A DNA stretch of 55,230 nt from an uncultured bacterium (GTDB lineage: Bacteria > Cyanobacteriota > Vampirovibrionia > Gastranaerophilales > Gastranaerophilaceae), in contig CADBFN010000008.1 of NCBI GenBank assembly GCA_902794035.1, positions 1 through 55,230 on the forward strand. Reading direction: 5' to 3'. Made by a program: the position numbers and the translations under genes. Positions 14,914-47,223 of this stretch are shown here, piece after piece. The first letter of the stretch is position 1. Each line of letters opens with the position of its first letter. Below the pieces are notes generated by a model. The model did no database searches. It saw nothing but the letters and a program-made list of their open reading frames with translations, and had not been told where the DNA came from.

Positions 14914-15015
14914 GTGAATCGTGAGTTGTGAATTGACCTTTACAGATTCGATGACCGTAAAATGTGCGATAGCAACGATAACGACTGTTCACAACTCACA
15001 TCTCACAATTCACAA
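14914..15015. repeat. GTGAATCGTGAG inverted-repeat element between accB and accC
   Basis: GTGAATCGTGAGTTGTGAAT (from 14914) is imperfectly complementary to the run of CACAACTCACA / CTCACAATTCAC motifs ending at 15015, giving a long imperfect hairpin in the accB-accC spacer. The same GTGAATCGTGAGT-GTGAAT core recurs at 47134 in another intergenic region. No gene is visible in the 199-bp spacer. Confidence 0.55.
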
Positions 15016-15582: not shown

Positions 15583-16140
15583 TTAAACTCTGTCTAAATA
15601 TTCATTAGTTCTTGTATCAACTCTGATAATATCACCGTTTGCAACAAAGAACGGAACGTTTACAACCGCACCTGTTTCTAATGTTGCAGGTTTAGTACCG
15701 CCTTGAGAAGTATTACCTTTTTCTGACGGAGGAGTATCAACAACTTCAAGTTCAACGTGAGCAGGAATATCTACTCCGATAACTTTGCCTTCATGCAATA
15801 AAATCATTACATTCATATTTTCTTTAAGATATTTTTTGCCGTCACCAACCTGAACTTCTGATACATGTAATTGATCATATGTTTCATTATCCATCATTAC
15901 ATAATCAGAACCTTCTTTATATAAGTACTGCATTTCACGTCTGTCCAAAGTTGCTTTGGCAACTTTTTCACCGGCTCTGAATGTTTTTTCAACAACCTGA
16001 CCTGTCATAACGTTTTTAAGTTTTGAACGTACAAATGCAGAACCTTTACCCGGTTTAACGTGCAAAAATTCTACAACTGACCATAAGCCGTTATCTAATT
16101 CTATTGTTAAACCTGTTTTAAAATCGTTTACTGAAATCAT
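15583..16140 (-). CDS. efp: Translation elongation factor P
   Basis: 185 aa with the three beta-barrel EF-P domains. It relieves ribosome stalling at polyproline stretches. The loop that carries the modified lysine reads [10 protein letters not shown], with Lys32 at the tip. The C-terminal signature (V-D-T-P-P and later [10 protein letters not shown]) is intact. AAAGGGG lies 8 nt before the ATG. First gene of the efp-accB-accC run and divergent from rimP-nusA. Confidence 0.96.
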
Positions 16141-16313
16141 ATATTTTTCCCCTTTTTAAAAGTAAAATCCTTCTTTGTGAATAAATAATATCATAAAGTG
16201 TATTTTTTTTCAAAAAATTGAATAATCTTGTTACAAATCAGCAACTCAAATTATATTAAAAAAGTGTGGCAATCTTTATATTTATTTACAACTACTTTAC
16301 AATTTGGGTGAGC
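16141..16313. other. efp-rimP divergent intergenic region, upstream part
   Basis: AT-rich region between divergent operons. I see no gene; it should hold the efp promoter on the minus strand, but no convincing -35/-10 pair stands out. Confidence 0.4.
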
Positions 16314-16384
16314 TATAATAGAATACAAGTATAGAAAGCAGTATTGCTCATGAAAAAAAAGAACGGTGTCCCCGTTCTTTTTTT
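16314..16384 (+). promoter_or_regulatory. -10 box and leader terminator/attenuator of rimP-nusA
   Basis: TATAAT at 16314-16319 opens a short leader. A strong hairpin follows: AAGAACGG (16359-16366) pairs with CCGTTCTT (16372-16379), extended by an A-run on the left and T-run to 16384 on the right. It is an intrinsic terminator placed before the first gene of the operon. The -35 is not clear. Attenuation by NusA itself is a plausible reading, since NusA strengthens such terminators. Confidence 0.65.
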
Positions 16385-16410
16385 CACTAATAATGAAAGG
16401 TCGGTAAAAG

Positions 16411-16893
16411 ATGAGAACAGAAATAAACAGATTGGAAATTTTGGCTAAAATTACACCATTAATTGAAAATACTGCTATGCGTTATAATCTGGTACCGATT
16501 GAAATTGATTTTTCCAAAGAAAATCATCGTTGGTTTTTAAGAATATTTTTGTATTCAAAAGAACGCGATATAACTCTTGATGATTGTGAAAAAGTAACAA
16601 GAAGTCTTGAAGATTTTCTTGATGAATTGATTCCTGTCAAATATTATCTTGAGGTTTCTTCTCCGGGATTAGAACGTAAATTCAAATCAGAAAAAGAATT
16701 TATTATATTTAAAGGTAAAAGAATCAGTTTAAAACTGAAAGAGCCTTTAGAAGGTGAAACCGAAAAAATATTTAAAGGCGAACTTGTCGATTATGACACG
16801 AGCGAAGGTTTGACTTTTTTCAGGTTTGATGATGGCAAAGAACTGCACATTCCCAAAGATAACATTGCATCAGCAAAATTGTATATTGATTAA
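16411..16893 (+). CDS. rimP: Ribosome maturation factor RimP
   Basis: 160 aa, full length for the RimP/YhbC family that helps 30S subunit maturation. The N-terminal alpha/beta domain contains the family block DDCEKVTRSLEDFLD and the PVKYYLEVSSPGLER signature. The C-terminal SH3-like barrel ends IPKDNIASAKL. It is immediately upstream of nusA, the usual arrangement. An AAAGG motif lies about 12 nt before the ATG. Confidence 0.93.
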   Translation: MRTEINRLEILAKITPLIENTAMRYNLVPIEIDFSKENHRWFLRIFLYSKERDITLDDCEKVTRSLEDFLDELIPVKYYLEVSSPGLERKFKSEKEFIIFKGKRISLKLKEPLEGETEKIFKGELVDYDTSEGLTFFRFDDGKELHIPKDNIASAKLYID

Positions 16894-41298: not shown

Positions 41299-41829
41299 TT
41301 ATTCTTTGTATCCGATATATGGTAAATTTCTGTAATAACCGTCATAATCAAGACCATAACCTACAACAAATTTATCATCTACATCAAAGCAGTAATAATC
41401 CGGTTCAATATCAACTTTTCTTGTAATTTTTTTATCTAAAAGCGAACAGAATTTTAACGTTTTGACGTGAAAATTCATATGAATAAAATCAACCAAAAAT
41501 TTTGCAGTTAATCCTGTATCGACGATATCTTCAATAATTAAAACATTTTTCCCGTTCAAATCAGGAAGTTTTATATCAACAGCATTAACTTTTCCTGATG
41601 TTGTGGTTGAAGACCCATAACTTGATAATCTTATAAATTCAATTTTTAAAGGCATATCAAGATGTCTTACTAAATCAGTTGCAAATACAACAGCTCCTTT
41701 TAAAACACATATTGCAATGACTTCTTCGCCATTATAAAAATTATTTAATTCTTTTGAAACCTCTGCTATTCTTGTTTGTAACTGTTCTGAACTATACAGA
41801 ATTTTTAAGTCTTCTAATTTAATTTCCAT
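41299..41829 (-). CDS. hpt: Hypoxanthine phosphoribosyltransferase
   Basis: 176 aa purine salvage enzyme making IMP/GMP from hypoxanthine or guanine and PRPP. The PRPP motif VLIIEDIVDTG (96-106) with the acidic pair Glu100-Asp101 and Asp104 is intact; the flexible loop with SSYGSSTTTSG (69-79) and the C-terminal VVGYGLDYDGYYRNLP block are typical. Overlaps tilS by 11 bp, the frequent tilS-hpt pairing. Last gene of the seven-gene run. Confidence 0.95.
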   Translation of the reverse strand: MEIKLEDLKILYSSEQLQTRIAEVSKELNNFYNGEEVIAICVLKGAVVFATDLVRHLDMPLKIEFIRLSSYGSSTTTSGKVNAVDIKLPDLNGKNVLIIEDIVDTGLTAKFLVDFIHMNFHVKTLKFCSLLDKKITRKVDIEPDYYCFDVDDKFVVGYGLDYDGYYRNLPYIGYKE

Positions 41830-43159
41830 CTGTTTTAACCTCTATCTTATGTGTAGGATTTTTTGTTACTTTTATTTTATCACTTAAACCTATATTCGGA
41901 GCCCACAAAATTTCTTTACCCTGAGTTAAAAAAAGTAATTCGTCTTTTATATGGTTTGGAATTTTCTTTGAATTTAGATATTTTTTTAATTTTTGGTGTC
42001 CTTTCATTCCGTATGGTTGGATAATATCCCCGTCTTGCCTGTTTCTAAACTCAAAATTGAAATCTATTGAGGAGAAATCCACATAAACAACCCTGCCAGA
42101 ATGTTTATCAGTTTTGTCAGGCATGCTATCACATTCGCAAATATTGACAGTAATTCTTCCATTTTTATATTCTCCGGTTTTATCTATTTTTATATTTATA
42201 TTTTCGTTATTTTTTTTCTCTATAAGTTCAAAATATTTTTCGCATACATATAAATCATATCCTGTTGTAACAGAACAAATTTTACCCGATTTTGAAGTGT
42301 TATTTTCAACTATAAATTTCAAAAGAGTTTGTATTCTTTGTTTGTCATAATCCTGCGGTACCAAAGGAATGACTAAATCATAAATAATTCGCATCTGTAT
42401 CGGATTGGACAAATTCAGAAAATCTTTTGTATTAAACTTATTATTTTTTAGTATTTTGTTTTTGATTTGATCAATGTACTCACATACAATTTCTTCTTCA
42501 TCTTTCGCATTTTGAATTAAAGAAGTCAAAGCATTAATTGTATTAGGATTAATTTCCTGAAATAAAGGTAAAATATCGCTTCTTATTAAATTTCTTTTGT
42601 GTATAGTATCTTTATTTGAACTGTCATTATTTGGTTTAAGATTATTTTTTTTGCAATATTTTTCTATTGTATTTCTGTCAATATTCAAAAGTGGTCTGTA
42701 GAAAATATCTCTGTGGGAAGAAATTCCGCATAAACCTGAGATGCCTGTACCTTTAGCGATTCTGTAAATCAAAGTTTCGGCATTGTCATTTTTATTATGT
42801 GCGGTGAATATAATATTTGAATGAAATTTTTTCGCACATCTGTCAAAAAAATCATACCTTGCGTTTCGGGCATCTGTTTCAGTGTGTGCAATATCAGATG
42901 GCAACTTTTCGCTGTAAAACTCTATTGAATTTTTCTGGCAAAATTCTTTACAGTTTTTTTCTTCCGTATCACTTTCTTCTCCTCGCCAGTTGTGATTTAA
43001 GTGAATTGCAATAATTTTGTTTTCGCAAATATTTTTCAGGCAATTGAGCAGGCACATTGAATCATAACCGCCGGAAAATGCAACAAGAAATATATTTTCA
43101 GGCTTATTAATATTATAATTTTTTAAAAATTTTTTGATAGTTTGTTCAATTATATTCAT
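41819..43159 (-). CDS. tilS: tRNA(Ile)-lysidine synthase
   Basis: 446 aa N-type ATP pyrophosphatase that adds lysine to C34 of tRNA-Ile(CAU). PP-loop SGGYDS (29-34); the family blocks HLNHNWRGEESDTE and FTAHNKNDNAET (with D-N-A-E-T) and the RPLLNI segment follow; the C-terminal TilS domain covers about 360-440 (RNRQDGDIIQPYG). It starts 16 bp after the Clp_N protein and overlaps hpt. Confidence 0.94.
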   Translation of the reverse strand: MNIIEQTIKKFLKNYNINKPENIFLVAFSGGYDSMCLLNCLKNICENKIIAIHLNHNWRGEESDTEEKNCKEFCQKNSIEFYSEKLPSDIAHTETDARNARYDFFDRCAKKFHSNIIFTAHNKNDNAETLIYRIAKGTGISGLCGISSHRDIFYRPLLNIDRNTIEKYCKKNNLKPNNDSSNKDTIHKRNLIRSDILPLFQEINPNTINALTSLIQNAKDEEEIVCEYIDQIKNKILKNNKFNTKDFLNLSNPIQMRIIYDLVIPLVPQDYDKQRIQTLLKFIVENNTSKSGKICSVTTGYDLYVCEKYFELIEKKNNENINIKIDKTGEYKNGRITVNICECDSMPDKTDKHSGRVVYVDFSSIDFNFEFRNRQDGDIIQPYGMKGHQKLKKYLNSKKIPNHIKDELLFLTQGKEILWAPNIGLSDKIKVTKNPTHKIEVKTDGN

Positions 43160-43175
43160 TATTCAAAGGAATTTA

Positions 43176-44534
43176 TTATGAATTCAAATGTTTTTTTATA
43201 CCTTCACGAATTTCCAAAACATCTGTTCCGAGTTGTTCTAATGCCTGCATAGCTGTAGATTCAGGTTCTGTGGTAATTGCCCATAACAAATCAGAAGATT
43301 CAATTTTTGTTTTATTTGCTTTTTTGGCAATTTCCCACGCAGTTTCCAGAACACGTTTTGCACGTTTTGTAAACATGATTTCTTTATCTGAATAATCACT
43401 GCCCACTCCAACCATTTGTTCTACAATTTTTCTGGCGTCTTTTATGGTAATTTCAAGTTCATTGAGAACAACGGCACCTATACCTGTTGCTTCACCAATA
43501 ATACCAAGCATAAACATTTCGGTTCCGACAACGCATTTGCCCATACGTCTTGCTTCCTGCTTTGCCAGACGAAGGATTGTTAATGTTTCAGGCATTTCTT
43601 TTTCAATAGGTTTGATAATTGTATGAGCCAAATCATCATCATTAATCTTAAATTCTTTAAGAATATTATAAGCTACACCTTTTTTGGATTTTAATAAACC
43701 TAAAATCATATGTTCAGGCAGCACTTCGGATGAACCGAGCTCTTTTGCCGTTTGTTGAGCTAATGTCATTGCGACAAAAGCGTTTGGTGTGAATACAATT
43801 TGACGTCCTTCATATTCAGCACTTCTTGACTGAACTTTTGACAGTTTATCTTCAAACGCGCTGTCGGTAATGCCAAATTGTGCAAGTATTTTGGTCAAAT
43901 TTGATTCTTTATCTTCCAAAATAGATGAAATAATTTGTTCTGTTCCGAGAATTTCAAATCCTGAAGTTGAAAGTTTCGAAACTGCACGCTCAAGAACTTT
44001 TGAAGCTTCCAAATTATCAAATAAAGTATCTGTTTCTTTTGTCAAATCAATTTCCGGTTCTTTATTTTCTTCAATTTCAGGGTGAAAATCTTTTTTTACT
44101 TTCCTCTGAACCAGTTTTTCTATAAGCGGTCTTGATTTATCAATATCAAAACCAAGTGTTTCCAAATATGTTGATATTTTGGAATGTTTATCATTTATTA
44201 CTGCTAAGACAAGGTGTTCATAATGAACAGTTGAGTTACCGGATTCATTTACCAAATCCATTGTCTTTTGTAATATACGTTTAAAATCATCACTGAACGG
44301 AATTGAAGAATTCATATCTGCTTCTTCTATATTAAGGCTCATATATATTTCTTGCGCTAAATTCTCATATGTAATATCGTAGGAATTAAAAATCCTTGCA
44401 CAAAATCCTTTTGCGTTTTTAACAACTGCAAGCAGCAAATGTTCTGACAATACTTTATCAGAGTGGTCATAAATTGCAATGTTTTGTGCTTCTACAATTA
44501 CATTAAGAGCTTTTTCAGTGAATTTTTCAAACAT
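43176..44534 (-). CDS. Triple Clp_N domain protein without ATPase, 452 aa
   Basis: Built from three Clp N-terminal double repeats: about 1-150 (MFEKFTEKALNVIVEAQNIA, later HYEHLVLAVI), about 170-300 (TEQIISSIL, then PEHMILGLLKSKKG) and about 305-452 (LAKQEARRMGKCVVGTEMFM, then FTKRAKRVLETAWEIAKKAN). The third is closest to the ClpC N-domain. No Walker A/B or AAA+ sequence is present and no ClpP-binding loop. In ClpC/ClpA this domain docks substrates and adaptors, so a role as adaptor or decoy for a Clp machine is inferred. The start is 2 nt after the DUF1292 stop and has no site of its own, so it is coupled. Confidence 0.85.
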   Translation of the reverse strand: MFEKFTEKALNVIVEAQNIAIYDHSDKVLSEHLLLAVVKNAKGFCARIFNSYDITYENLAQEIYMSLNIEEADMNSSIPFSDDFKRILQKTMDLVNESGNSTVHYEHLVLAVINDKHSKISTYLETLGFDIDKSRPLIEKLVQRKVKKDFHPEIEENKEPEIDLTKETDTLFDNLEASKVLERAVSKLSTSGFEILGTEQIISSILEDKESNLTKILAQFGITDSAFEDKLSKVQSRSAEYEGRQIVFTPNAFVAMTLAQQTAKELGSSEVLPEHMILGLLKSKKGVAYNILKEFKINDDDLAHTIIKPIEKEMPETLTILRLAKQEARRMGKCVVGTEMFMLGIIGEATGIGAVVLNELEITIKDARKIVEQMVGVGSDYSDKEIMFTKRAKRVLETAWEIAKKANKTKIESSDLLWAITTEPESTAMQALEQLGTDVLEIREGIKKHLNS

Positions 44535-44536
44535 AA

Positions 44537-44824
44537 CTATTCGTCTTCTTCGTCTTCCAAATCTTCTTCATCAAGTATTTTATCTACATATTCTGAAACT
44601 CTGTCAAATTCTTCATCATCTTCAATTGTTTCAAAATAGCTTGTGCCGTCTTCTTCGGTATATGTTACGATAATTGTGTCATACATATCATCTTCAGAAT
44701 GGGACATATCTGCAAGAATTGCATATTGTTTCCCTTCAAAATCTATTATATCGTATAGTGCACATTTGATAACATTACCATCTTCATCTGTAAGTTCGAT
44801 TAAGTTGTTTTCTTCTTCTGCCAT
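44537..44824 (-). CDS. DUF1292 family acidic protein
   Basis: 95 aa, very acidic. Pattern IELTDEDGNVIKCALYDIID, F-E-G-K-Q-Y-A-I-L and the late E-D-D-E-E-F fit the DUF1292 (YrzB) family. In Firmicutes this family also lies next to ruvX, which is the arrangement here (29 bp after ruvX). AAAGGAG lies before the ATG. Function unknown. Confidence 0.85.
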   Translation of the reverse strand: MAEEENNLIELTDEDGNVIKCALYDIIDFEGKQYAILADMSHSEDDMYDTIIVTYTEEDGTSYFETIEDDEEFDRVSEYVDKILDEEDLEDEEDE

Positions 44825-44853
44825 TTTTTTGCTCCTTTATTTTTGTAAATTGT

Positions 44854-45258
44854 TTAATTTATTCTCGAAAGGTATTGCTCCAGTATAATACAAGCACTTT
44901 CAATATCAACCAATCCTTTGTCTTTTCTGAAATCAATTTTTTTATTGCGAAGATTTTCTTCTGCACTGTCTGAGGTTAGTCTTTCGTCTTCAAATATTAC
45001 CTCATAACCTTTTATTTTTGAAACAAATTTTTCGCAATTTTCTGCCTGAAATCCTTTTGTTCCGTCCATGTTTATTGGTAATCCGGCAACTATTTTTTCT
45101 ACATGATTGTCTTTAGCGATTTTATGTATTGTTTCAATAGCTTTGTCTTCCGGTTCTCTTGGGATGTATGAATGACCTTGAGCAGTAACTAAAAGAAAAT
45201 CGCTCAGGGCTATTCCTATTCGTTTAGTTCCGATATCAAGAGCCATTATTTTATACAT
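44854..45258 (-). CDS. ruvX: Holliday-junction resolvase-like RuvX (YqgF)
   Basis: 134 aa (130 if the second Met is used) with an RNase H-like fold. ALDIGTKRIGIALSD holds the first catalytic Asp8; GLPINMDGT, EDERLTS and the C-terminal D-I-E-S-A-C-I-I-L segment supply the others. Homologues process pre-16S rRNA or junction DNA. It overlaps the upstream gene by 8 bp. Confidence 0.92.
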   Translation of the reverse strand: MYKIMALDIGTKRIGIALSDFLLVTAQGHSYIPREPEDKAIETIHKIAKDNHVEKIVAGLPINMDGTKGFQAENCEKFVSKIKGYEVIFEDERLTSDSAEENLRNKKIDFRKDKGLVDIESACIILEQYLSRIN

Positions 45259-46849
45259 CAGATTTTACCCAATTTGTTTCTATATATGTTATTTTATCCG
45301 AAATATTTTCATCTGTAAACATTTCAGTATTCAAATCTTTATTATATTTTATAAGAACTAAATATTCATAAATGCTGCGTTTTAGTATCTCTGTTAATAA
45401 CTGCTCAAAAGCGTCATTATTATATGCGATATTATATATCTTCTGAGCTTCATCATTTTTGTCTATTGAATATTTAATATATGCACAGAAAATAAGTTTA
45501 TTTTTCCATGAAACTTTTTCTTCTGTATAAAATACTTTATCTTTATAATTTCTAATCAACTCATCTAAATTTTTGGTATTTTTTAATTCTTTTAACAGTT
45601 CTTCAAATTCGTCGCTGTAATCAGCATCTAAAAACCAATGAGAAGATATTTTCATTTCATCAAGACTTTTTATTATATTAATATTGGTTTTATCGGGTAT
45701 AAATTCATTTTTTATAATCTCATCGATATATTTTTCATCACAATCTATATCTATTAACAAATTTCTCCAGCAAATGTATTCATACGGAAGTTCCCAATCC
45801 GAATCGGATTTTTTAATAGTTGTAATTTCAGCATTAAACAGAATATTTTTAAAGATTTCAGGTTTTACTGATACGACTTTTTCATCTTTTAAAAATTTCT
45901 CTAAAATTTTGTTGCATTCAAATTGTGAAATATCATAGAATCCAAAGCAATCTTTAATGCCTGTTTCAATGTTTATAACAATTGATATAAAACGAATTCT
46001 TTTTTCTTCGGTTATTCTTGTGCAAATCATTGCAACATCACCATGACCGTCAGGATATGTCACATAAAATTTGTCAGGTTTTGTATTTATGAGAAGTTTT
46101 TTATACAATTCTTTTGTATTATCCGTTCTCATACCTGACATTTTTAATGTTGCAAGGCTTTTTCTTATTCTTTGATTAAGCTCTCCTGTTGTGTATTTAT
46201 TCATTCTTTCAAGCAAATTCAGAGCAAGCTGGGATTTTGTATTGCCAAGTAATTTCAGAGCTTCTTTCCCTTCAGGACTGTCAGGATTAGATTCAAAAAC
46301 GGGTATAAGAATGTTTGCCAGAGCATCAGATTCAAAATCATGCTCAAATGAATTCAGTAATGTTATTTTATCTTCAGTTTTGATTGATGCAAGAAAATCC
46401 ATAAAATCAATCTGAACTTCCGGATTTATAATTGCATTTTTTAATAACTGTTTTGTGTTTTCGTCAAGAATTTCATCAGCATCTTCAACATACTCTGAGC
46501 AATTATCATAAGACCAGTCTGCATCAAGCTCTCTGAGCATATTAAGTACCATTACTCTTATATCTGTTGAAAGATTTTTATTTTTCATCATTTCCCACAA
46601 GCCGGAAATTAAATCATTTTTACTGACAAAATGTTCTAACAAAAAGCATATTACAGGAATTTTTTCTTTTGAGGCATTGGATAATTCTTTGAATAATAAC
46701 TTTGATAATAACGATTTATCTTCCTGTGAATCAAGTAAATCTATATCATCAAGACAATTTCTTATATCTTCTACCGAATTTATTTTACAAAGTAGCTTTG
46801 TTAAAGTTGATTTTATTTCAAACGGATTAAGTTGTTTTGAGACGCTCAA
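45251..46849 (-). CDS. Hypothetical helical-repeat protein, 532 aa
   Basis: Begins at a TTG (MSVSKQLNPFE) 1 nt after the zinc-domain gene, with AAAGG 9 nt upstream; no in-frame ATG lies nearby. The first ~240 residues are short helix pairs of HEAT-like character (KSLLSKLLFKELSNASKEKI, ALKLLGNTKSQLALNLLERM). A central mixed region (about 250-350) contains YVTYPDGHGDVAMICTRI, resembling a small beta domain. The C-terminal part is helical and acidic. No family is recognised. It sits between the two Clp-type domain genes and could be a partner. Confidence 0.75.
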   Translation of the reverse strand: MSVSKQLNPFEIKSTLTKLLCKINSVEDIRNCLDDIDLLDSQEDKSLLSKLLFKELSNASKEKIPVICFLLEHFVSKNDLISGLWEMMKNKNLSTDIRVMVLNMLRELDADWSYDNCSEYVEDADEILDENTKQLLKNAIINPEVQIDFMDFLASIKTEDKITLLNSFEHDFESDALANILIPVFESNPDSPEGKEALKLLGNTKSQLALNLLERMNKYTTGELNQRIRKSLATLKMSGMRTDNTKELYKKLLINTKPDKFYVTYPDGHGDVAMICTRITEEKRIRFISIVINIETGIKDCFGFYDISQFECNKILEKFLKDEKVVSVKPEIFKNILFNAEITTIKKSDSDWELPYEYICWRNLLIDIDCDEKYIDEIIKNEFIPDKTNINIIKSLDEMKISSHWFLDADYSDEFEELLKELKNTKNLDELIRNYKDKVFYTEEKVSWKNKLIFCAYIKYSIDKNDEAQKIYNIAYNNDAFEQLLTEILKRSIYEYLVLIKYNKDLNTEMFTDENISDKITYIETNWVKSDV

Positions 46850-46850
46850 T

Positions 46851-47114
46851 TTATTTTGCCTTTCCCCAGAATGCTTTTAAAATTTGTTGTGCTTCGGCAC
46901 AAGGGATTCTGTCCTCAAGAACAAAATATTGCAATGCTATCATAGTGCATTCCGAACAAATATTTACCCCCGGACCTTCAATCATCTTTATCACCTGTGT
47001 ATTAGGTCGTCCGCAGAAACTACAATAAACAAGTTCTTGTTTTTGTTCTTCTTCTTTATGTTCTTTAGATTTATTCTTTTTTGAACCCAGGCTTACAACT
47101 TTATCGTCTGACAT
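46851..47114 (-). CDS. Stand-alone ClpX-type zinc-binding domain protein, 87 aa
   Basis: Residues 28-65 reproduce the N-terminal zinc domain of ClpX: C31-S-F-C34-G-R-P, KMIEGPGVNIC53-S-E-C56. The ClpX AAA+ domain is absent; the protein stops after a short helix. The first 27 residues are a Lys/Glu-rich leader. In ClpX this domain dimerises and binds adaptors such as SspB and substrates. Standing alone, it could bridge to adaptors or compete with ClpX. AAGGAG lies 6 nt before the ATG. First gene of the run to hpt. Confidence 0.88.
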   Translation of the reverse strand: MSDDKVVSLGSKKNKSKEHKEEEQKQELVYCSFCGRPNTQVIKMIEGPGVNICSECTMIALQYFVLEDRIPCAEAQQILKAFWGKAK

Positions 47115-47133: not shown

Positions 47134-47223
47134 GTGAATCGTGAGTCGTGAATGGTGAATTGTTTTTTACAACAAATAAATATAAGTTATTATGAAACGG
47201 TCAATTCACGATTCACATTTCAC
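47134..47223. repeat. GTGAATCGTGAG inverted-repeat element, second copy
   Basis: GTGAATCGTGAGTCGTGAAT (from 47134) with an imperfect complementary arm CAATTCACGATTCAC (from 47202) ending at 47223. The left arm matches that at 14914. It lies between the divergent zinc-domain gene and the TPR lipoprotein gene and could be an operator or a mobile palindromic repeat. The rest of this 201-bp gap is AT-rich. Confidence 0.55.

Follow-up and report, generated by a model that had tools for sequence, protein, structure and literature searches.

Motor-less proteins with Clp recognition domains in the Gastranaerophilales: a lone ClpX-type zinc domain and a triple Clp_N protein

Introduction

Why would a bacterium encode the recognition domains of two Clp machines apart from any motor, and do two such proteins form one system when they share an operon? 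The question is posed by a 55,230-nucleotide stretch of DNA (the window) of contig CADBFN010000008.1 (assembly GCA_902794035.1) from an uncultured member of the order Gastranaerophilales (Cyanobacteriota; Vampirovibrionia; family Gastranaerophilaceae), in which a tightly packed minus-strand run from 47114 to 41299 encodes, in this order, an 87-amino-acid (aa) protein termed ZF, a 532-aa protein termed HEL, RuvX, a DUF1292 protein, a 452-aa protein termed CLPN3, TilS and Hpt. A first-pass annotation, made from the sequence alone, described ZF as the zinc domain of ClpX standing alone and CLPN3 as three Clp_N double domains, and proposed a dedicated adaptor, anti-adaptor or decoy system for the Clp proteases. 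The analysis reported here leads us to favour, tentatively, two separately conserved and putatively Clp-derived regulators over one system.

Results

Both proteins carry the domains first assigned to them. Residues 30-60 of ZF match the Pfam family zf-C4_ClpX with a score of 51 bits (cut-off 27, E 1.3e-13), in the PDB the protein matches ClpX zinc domains, and the four cysteines C31, C34, C53 and C56 are invariant in 32 of 32 aligned sequences (alignment A1, comprising 32 of 41 sequences and omitting a divergent one from genome G059 and eight from the window's genus); a KVVSL motif at the N-terminus is nearly invariant in the same alignment. The Pfam scan found no AAA+ family in the 87 aa, and full-length ClpX models of NCBIfam align to the zinc domain only, far below cut-off. 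CLPN3 contains six Clp_N stretches arranged in pairs (148 bits, E 6e-44, over the curated cut-off); Pfam found no AAA+ family in its 452 aa, and the NCBIfam models of full-length ClpA/ClpB remain far below cut-off. Its PDB matches are headed by ClpC N-domains, with motor-less ClpC2 and ClpT entries after them, and its AlphaFold2 model (mean predicted local distance difference test, pLDDT, 83.0; predicted template modelling score, pTM, 0.59) matches ClpC N-domain structures in Foldseek with template modelling scores to the target of up to 0.92. The host genome encodes Clp machines separately: a ClpX (430-aa frame with a zf-C4_ClpX match) encoded just after a clpP, a ClpC (853-aa frame) and a ClpB (867-aa frame) on other contigs, and two ClpP.

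The two proteins are conserved nearly throughout the order. Counted by hand, a short-frame ZF is present in 56 of 59 order genomes, and CLPN3, among the matches listed, also in 56 of 59. The three genomes without ZF are 80, 84 and 66% complete, and in G017 and G026 the contig ends between CLPN3 and the place of ZF. One of the three genomes without CLPN3, G042 (99% complete, 8 contigs), has ZF, and CLPN3 was not found there among the matches listed. CLPN3 is in pieces in G007, G012, G017 and G028; in the genus assemblies G012 and G017 two pieces lie on one contig. HEL is matched in 132 of 292 genomes of the phylum, of which 131 belong to the order and the remaining one, a weak match, to another class; since the 20 of 160 unmatched genomes that are listed, in kinship order, begin at class level, we take it that no genome of the order is unmatched. 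The distribution stops short of family f9 of the same class: HEL was not found in five f9 genomes; separate ZF was not found in three, where the ZF profile matches ClpX-sized frames only, among the matches listed; and separate CLPN3 was not found in five, the Clp_N matches listed being ClpC- or ClpB-sized frames.

Within the family, 47 genomes outside the genus, part of about 113 such HEL-matching genomes, were searched for CLPN3 together with the five f9 genomes and G094. Full-length CLPN3 (~450 aa) was found in 46 of the 47 among the matches listed, the exception being G305, whose CLPN3 relative is a single-domain protein of 143 aa. Against three genus relatives, CLPN3 has nonsynonymous divergence (dN) of 0.06-0.07 and dN/dS of 0.044-0.056, rough values because synonymous divergence (dS) exceeds 1; ZF has dN of 0.02-0.05, with dS saturated in two of the three pairs and dN/dS of 0.015 in the third. 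These values indicate purifying selection on both proteins. A frameshift that had cut off AAA+ domains, an artefact considered at the outset, is ruled out by the full-length CLPN3 of the 46 genomes and by the low dN/dS.

Several further relatives were observed. The CLPN3 relative of G305 (1.5 Mb) is a closed 143-aa frame (L269, 2113-2544). In G094, from another class of the phylum (L266, L267, L268), the weak HEL relative occupies a 528-aa frame, and two Clp_N proteins occur besides, one of 477 aa and one of 372 aa that has two Clp_N double domains. G059, a class-level relative (L070, L106-L109), has a stand-alone zinc protein of ClpX type (145 aa) set in a different context; its Clp_N matches comprise four proteins of 248-482 aa and an 829-aa frame. 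Among the best 80 of 330 encoding loci, the close named relatives with the locus are metagenome-assembled genomes titled Candidatus Gastranaerophilales, Melainabacteria, Cyanobacteria or "bacterium", including Zag_111; three titles (Muribaculaceae, Clostridiaceae, Brachyspira) are probably mislabels.

The conserved order-wide unit is ZF-HEL-ruvX-DUF1292. At 19 ZF loci from other families (f2-f7), HEL adjoins ZF in all 19. Next come ruvX, at 18 loci, and DUF1292, at 16, contig ends accounting for those not seen; CLPN3 is present at none of the 19, three of which are cut by contig ends before its place. In the same family the gap between ZF and HEL measures -4 to 42 bases in all 62 genomes examined, and the two genes adjoin in most lineages. 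At the 20 loci of the window's genus, CLPN3 is in the run in every case and all seven genes are present in 19; the remaining locus gives no match to tilS or hpt in the fetched stretch. ZF and CLPN3 also share one same-strand run at 80 of 80 loci, a figure biased to near relatives since it comes from the best 80 of 330. Outside the genus, among the 46 same-family genomes with full CLPN3, the gene is linked to HEL in 28 and lies on another contig in 18 (hand count, among the matches listed); none of 12 HEL loci taken from unlinked genomes contains CLPN3, and the neighbours of unlinked CLPN3 vary (RNase Y, YmdB and a PHP protein in one family, a Mur ligase and NIF3 in another). This pattern indicates two units, ZF-HEL and CLPN3, joined in part of one family. 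Conservation of gene order had been set beforehand as a test of the proposed joint system: presence in the same genome holds, and co-occurrence in one gene order fails. Five loci of genus g30 (L309, L310, L318, L320 and L323) carry HEL-ruvX-DUF1292-CLPN3 runs without a neighbouring ZF.

To see how far ZF resembles ClpX, residues 28-70 of 32 ZF sequences were compared with 30 ClpX zinc domains of the order at a 90% threshold. Thirteen positions are common to both, the four cysteines included. The surface has changed consistently: in the last ClpX helix, charged or polar residues become hydrophobic in ZF (E to M58, N to L/V61, D to I/V65, E to L66). This hydrophobic face may be buried against a partner, most simply HEL. 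The first-pass annotation described HEL as a helical-repeat protein of unknown family. No Pfam family exceeds its cut-off in the 532-aa protein of the window, and HEAT_2 is matched at E <= 0.01 by 11 of 39 family members (DUF7401 by 6). The AlphaFold2 model built on 39 sequences (pLDDT 85.7, pTM 0.73) has helical repeats to residue ~240, an alpha/beta module at ~255-330 that holds a conserved DCFGF motif, and a helical C-terminus. In fold searches residues 1-240 resemble HEAT-type solenoids, a general similarity only, and no close fold match for HEL was found. The HEL alignment (A2) leaves out L083, a sequence cut at a contig end.

The three double domains of CLPN3 differ in their distance from the N-domain of the host's own ClpC, to which domain 3 is 40%, domain 1 29% and domain 2 25% identical. 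T7, E32 and E106 are among the residues discussed for the phospho-arginine sites of ClpC (PMC12583610). Counted over 37 aligned CLPN3 sequences (alignment A3, without four G059 proteins), the corresponding positions are largely kept in domain 1 (T6 in 37, E31 in 35, E106 in 36), with S in place of T81 in 36 of 37; in domain 2 the pocket is partly kept (E199 in 34, T249 and E274 in all 37), and domain 3 keeps E339 in all 37 and T389 in 35. CLPN3 thus appears to retain most residues of the ClpC phospho-arginine pockets, some having been lost. Such residues may be kept for structural reasons, so their retention is no proof of phospho-arginine binding.

Clp genes lie near the operon in two genera. 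A second clpP occurs within the 20-kb stretch in 10 of 19 genomes of the window's genus. Nine of these copies are downstream of hpt, eight on the same strand and one on the opposite strand, and the tenth lies upstream; of the nine genomes without a nearby clpP, three have contigs that stop no more than ~2 kb past hpt. Five of eight genomes of genus g30 have clpP1-clpX behind hpt on the same strand. By our own estimate (two clp loci per ~1.9 Mb genome, 16 linked genera), two such genera would arise by chance with a probability of roughly 5%, and we regard the proximity as a weak hint of a Clp link, not proof. L310 of g30 (15952-16560) additionally has a clpP2 ~5 kb upstream of HEL, besides the clpP1-clpX downstream of hpt.

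Known adaptors were sought as well. ClpS was found in none of six order genomes; five controls were positive, with two ClpS in the cyanobacterium G061. MecA was found in none of eight genomes, six of the order included, with two controls positive. Cyanobacteria are described with ClpS1/ClpS2 and NblA (PMC7966870).

The genes of the run are collected in Table 1. The first-pass annotation had placed the run correctly in coordinates, strands and lengths, and Pfam confirms ruvX and DUF1292 between ZF and CLPN3; tilS and hpt, left unnamed there, also belong to the run.

Table 1. Genes of the run, with positions in the window.
Gene	Position	Strand	Description	Basis or context
ZF	46851..47114	-	87 aa, stand-alone ClpX-type C4 zinc domain, own C-terminal tail	Pfam zf-C4_ClpX
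HEL	45251..46849	-	532 aa, listed start TTG at 46849	HEAT-like N-terminal half, AlphaFold2 model
ruvX (yqgF)	44854..45258	-	Pfam RuvX 123 bits	in order-wide operon
DUF1292 protein	44537..44824	-	Pfam DUF1292 55.7 bits	in order-wide operon
CLPN3	43176..44534	-	452 aa, three Clp_N double domains	Pfam Clp_N
tilS	41819..43159	-	downstream of CLPN3, same run	Pfam and NCBIfam
hpt	41299..41829	-	last gene of run	NCBIfam HGPRTase

Some features around the run deserve record. The divergent spacer upstream of ZF (47134-47216) holds four copies of a GTGAATCGTGAAT-like 13-mer (at most one mismatch), and a further copy lies at 14914, giving five in the window against 0.12 expected. Loci L074, L075, L079, L085, L087 and L088, from several families, have a ~285-aa protein upstream of ZF, with HEAT repeats in the L075 member; a further-upstream protein accompanies it in five of the six loci and is a sensor histidine kinase in L075. 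Loci L073, L080, L081, L094 and L099 share one protein cluster (342-388 aa, the L080 member with SLH domains), which adjoins DUF1292 in one family and CLPN3 in another.

Discussion

Because ZF and CLPN3 are conserved separately and share an operon only in some lineages, they are probably two regulators, and the reading that we favour, still tentatively, is that both are motor-less derivatives of Clp machines and not parts of one system. We infer their descent, and likewise all binding, delivery and titration. CLPN3 would descend from the N-terminal domains of ClpC, its third domain being still nearest to the host's own ClpC, and would work in trans as a multivalent receptor for ligands of the ClpC N-domain; these could be substrates or adaptors, and perhaps marks resembling phospho-arginine or inhibitory peptides, which CLPN3 may hold, concentrate or titrate relative to the ClpC-ClpP protease. 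The nearest precedent is mycobacterial ClpC2, a sponge for a ligand of ClpC1: it is reported to draw cyclomarin off ClpC1 and to be a possible competitor for substrates (PMC10030653). ZF would be a zinc domain of ClpX type whose surface has been re-specialised and which acts jointly with HEL; HEL would be a client-binding scaffold and ZF the part that docks, in the simplest case onto ClpX or one of its partners. The ClpX zinc domain can dimerise when alone and has a role in the recognition of substrates and adaptors (PMC9035409), which would allow ZF to pair with that domain or with partners of it.

A number of observations weigh against this reading of two Clp-derived regulators. In genus g30, which lies outside the 62-genome sample, ZF is missing beside HEL in five of eight loci. 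No clpP or clpX was found near the operon in 18 loci of other linked genera or in the window; the loci of other families and the unlinked loci examined likewise showed none close to ZF-HEL or CLPN3. Domain 2 of CLPN3 is without the first pocket threonine, and the second pocket glutamate of domain 3 is E in only 15 of 37 sequences and lost in the window's genus (S414 in the window). As for the adaptors, ClpS was also not found in the one f9 genome tested, and MecA also not in the cyanobacterium G061. MecA is a Firmicute adaptor not expected outside the Firmicutes, so that its absence from the order is to be expected. The near-fixed differences between ZF and ClpX, considered next, belong to the same side of the balance.

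The main rival of the favoured reading leaves Clp out for ZF, which would be a re-used ClpX-type zinc finger engaged with HEL and RuvX in ribosome or nucleic-acid work, CLPN3 being an unrelated neighbour. We consider it possible, since the order-wide unit ZF-HEL-ruvX-DUF1292 is without Clp genes and ZF differs near-fixedly from ClpX at eleven positions (R36, P37, N38, M44, G49, N51, S54, M58, I59, Q62 and Y63), of which three are conservative substitutions (R/K, M/L and I/L). RuvX is also known as a pre-16S rRNA nuclease. That the ZF surface is consistently unlike the ClpX zinc domain moreover makes a plain ClpX decoy less likely. A precedent for re-use is found in some cyanobacterial sigma factors, for which zf-C4_ClpX is reported as an accessory domain (PMC11119718). 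On the other side stand the 13 core positions of the ClpX zinc domain that ZF has kept, the four cysteines among them, and the clpP or clpP-clpX genes near the operon in two genera. The pairing of ruvX with DUF1292, moreover, occurs elsewhere and so says little about ZF.

A bolder form of the favoured reading, which we hold to be doubtful, is that Clp proteolysis in the order is directed by adaptors derived from the machines themselves, which would stand in for ClpS: the triple ClpC N-domain would gather substrates for ClpC-ClpP, and ZF-HEL would dock clients onto ClpX through zinc-domain pairing. Loss of ClpS as the reason for CLPN3 is weakened as an explanation, the tested f9 genome being without ClpS, too; f9 lacks ClpS, yet no HEL and, among the matches listed, no separate ZF or CLPN3 was found in its genomes, which indicates that the loss of ClpS is not tied to these genes.

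It is unlikely that the main role of CLPN3 is to soak up peptide or phage inhibitors directed at the ClpC N-domain, in the way that ClpC2 of mycobacteria does with cyclomarin (PMC10030653). CLPN3 is of the same motor-less domain type and matches ClpC2 structures, and the ClpC2 case is itself a precedent; its three double domains speak against this reading. A further point against it is that we know of no inhibitor of the ClpC N-domain for this order.

Less likely again is the single dedicated system first proposed, in which ZF and CLPN3 are made together, ZF titrating ligands of ClpX and CLPN3 those of ClpC. The shared runs of the genus and of the 80 named loci (best 80 of 330) agree with it, as does the presence of each gene in 56 of 59 order genomes, but linkage is confined to part of one family, being 0/19 elsewhere (three cut by contig ends) with 18/46 unlinked within the family, CLPN3 is absent from the 12 HEL loci of unlinked genomes, G042 has ZF without CLPN3, and five loci have CLPN3 without a neighbouring ZF. 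What survives of the proposal is that ZF and CLPN3 derive from Clp recognition domains without the motors, are near order-wide and are strongly constrained; the joint system is not supported.

That ZF and CLPN3 are degenerate, functionless remnants of ClpX and ClpC, as the missing motors and the two-piece CLPN3 of G012 and G017 might suggest, is highly improbable and refuted by conservation, given the low dN/dS of both, the similar protein ends across the order and the separate ClpX and ClpC in the genome.

ZF, HEL and CLPN3 are order-specific gene families that are almost universally kept. If CLPN3 and ZF-HEL do act on ClpC and ClpX, an order of largely uncultured gut bacteria would control proteolysis with detached recognition domains, which would widen the theme set by ClpC2 and ClpT and offer separable modules for steering Clp proteases.

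Comparison with known systems

Stand-alone Clp recognition domains are a known kind of protein. As variants of it, the architecture of three Clp_N double domains and the pairing of ZF with HEL did not appear in the publications listed by a literature search, which left most subscription papers outside. Among the records listed, none dealt with the ClpX zinc domain as a protein of its own, with a triple Clp_N protein or with Clp proteases in the order. Mycobacterial ClpC2 (PDB 8ad9, 9p2p), matched in sequence and fold, is like CLPN3 a Clp_N-type protein without AAA+ that occurs beside a complete ClpC. It comprises, to judge by the section headings of the source (PMC10030653), an N-terminal dimerising domain and a C-terminal cyclomarin-binding domain, whereas the single chain of CLPN3 holds three double domains. 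ClpC2 is further reported to bind DNA and cyclomarin and to repress itself. The plastid proteins ClpT1 and ClpT2 (PDB 4y0b, 4y0c) share the motor-less Clp_N fold and come from the cyanobacterial/plastid lineage, although the sequence match of CLPN3 to them is much weaker than that to ClpC (E 0.0015 against 1e-26).

For ZF the reference is the zinc-binding domain of ClpX (PDB 1ovx, 2ds5), with which it shares the C4 zinc site and core motif and from which it differs in having no AAA+ part, in the eleven near-fixed substitutions, in the hydrophobic last helix and in a tail of its own. The genes downstream have a counterpart in the Firmicute yrrK-yrzB pair, an instance of the ruvX-DUF1292 pairing known elsewhere, in which ruvX is followed by DUF1292 as it is here; in the Gastranaerophilales, ZF and HEL precede them.

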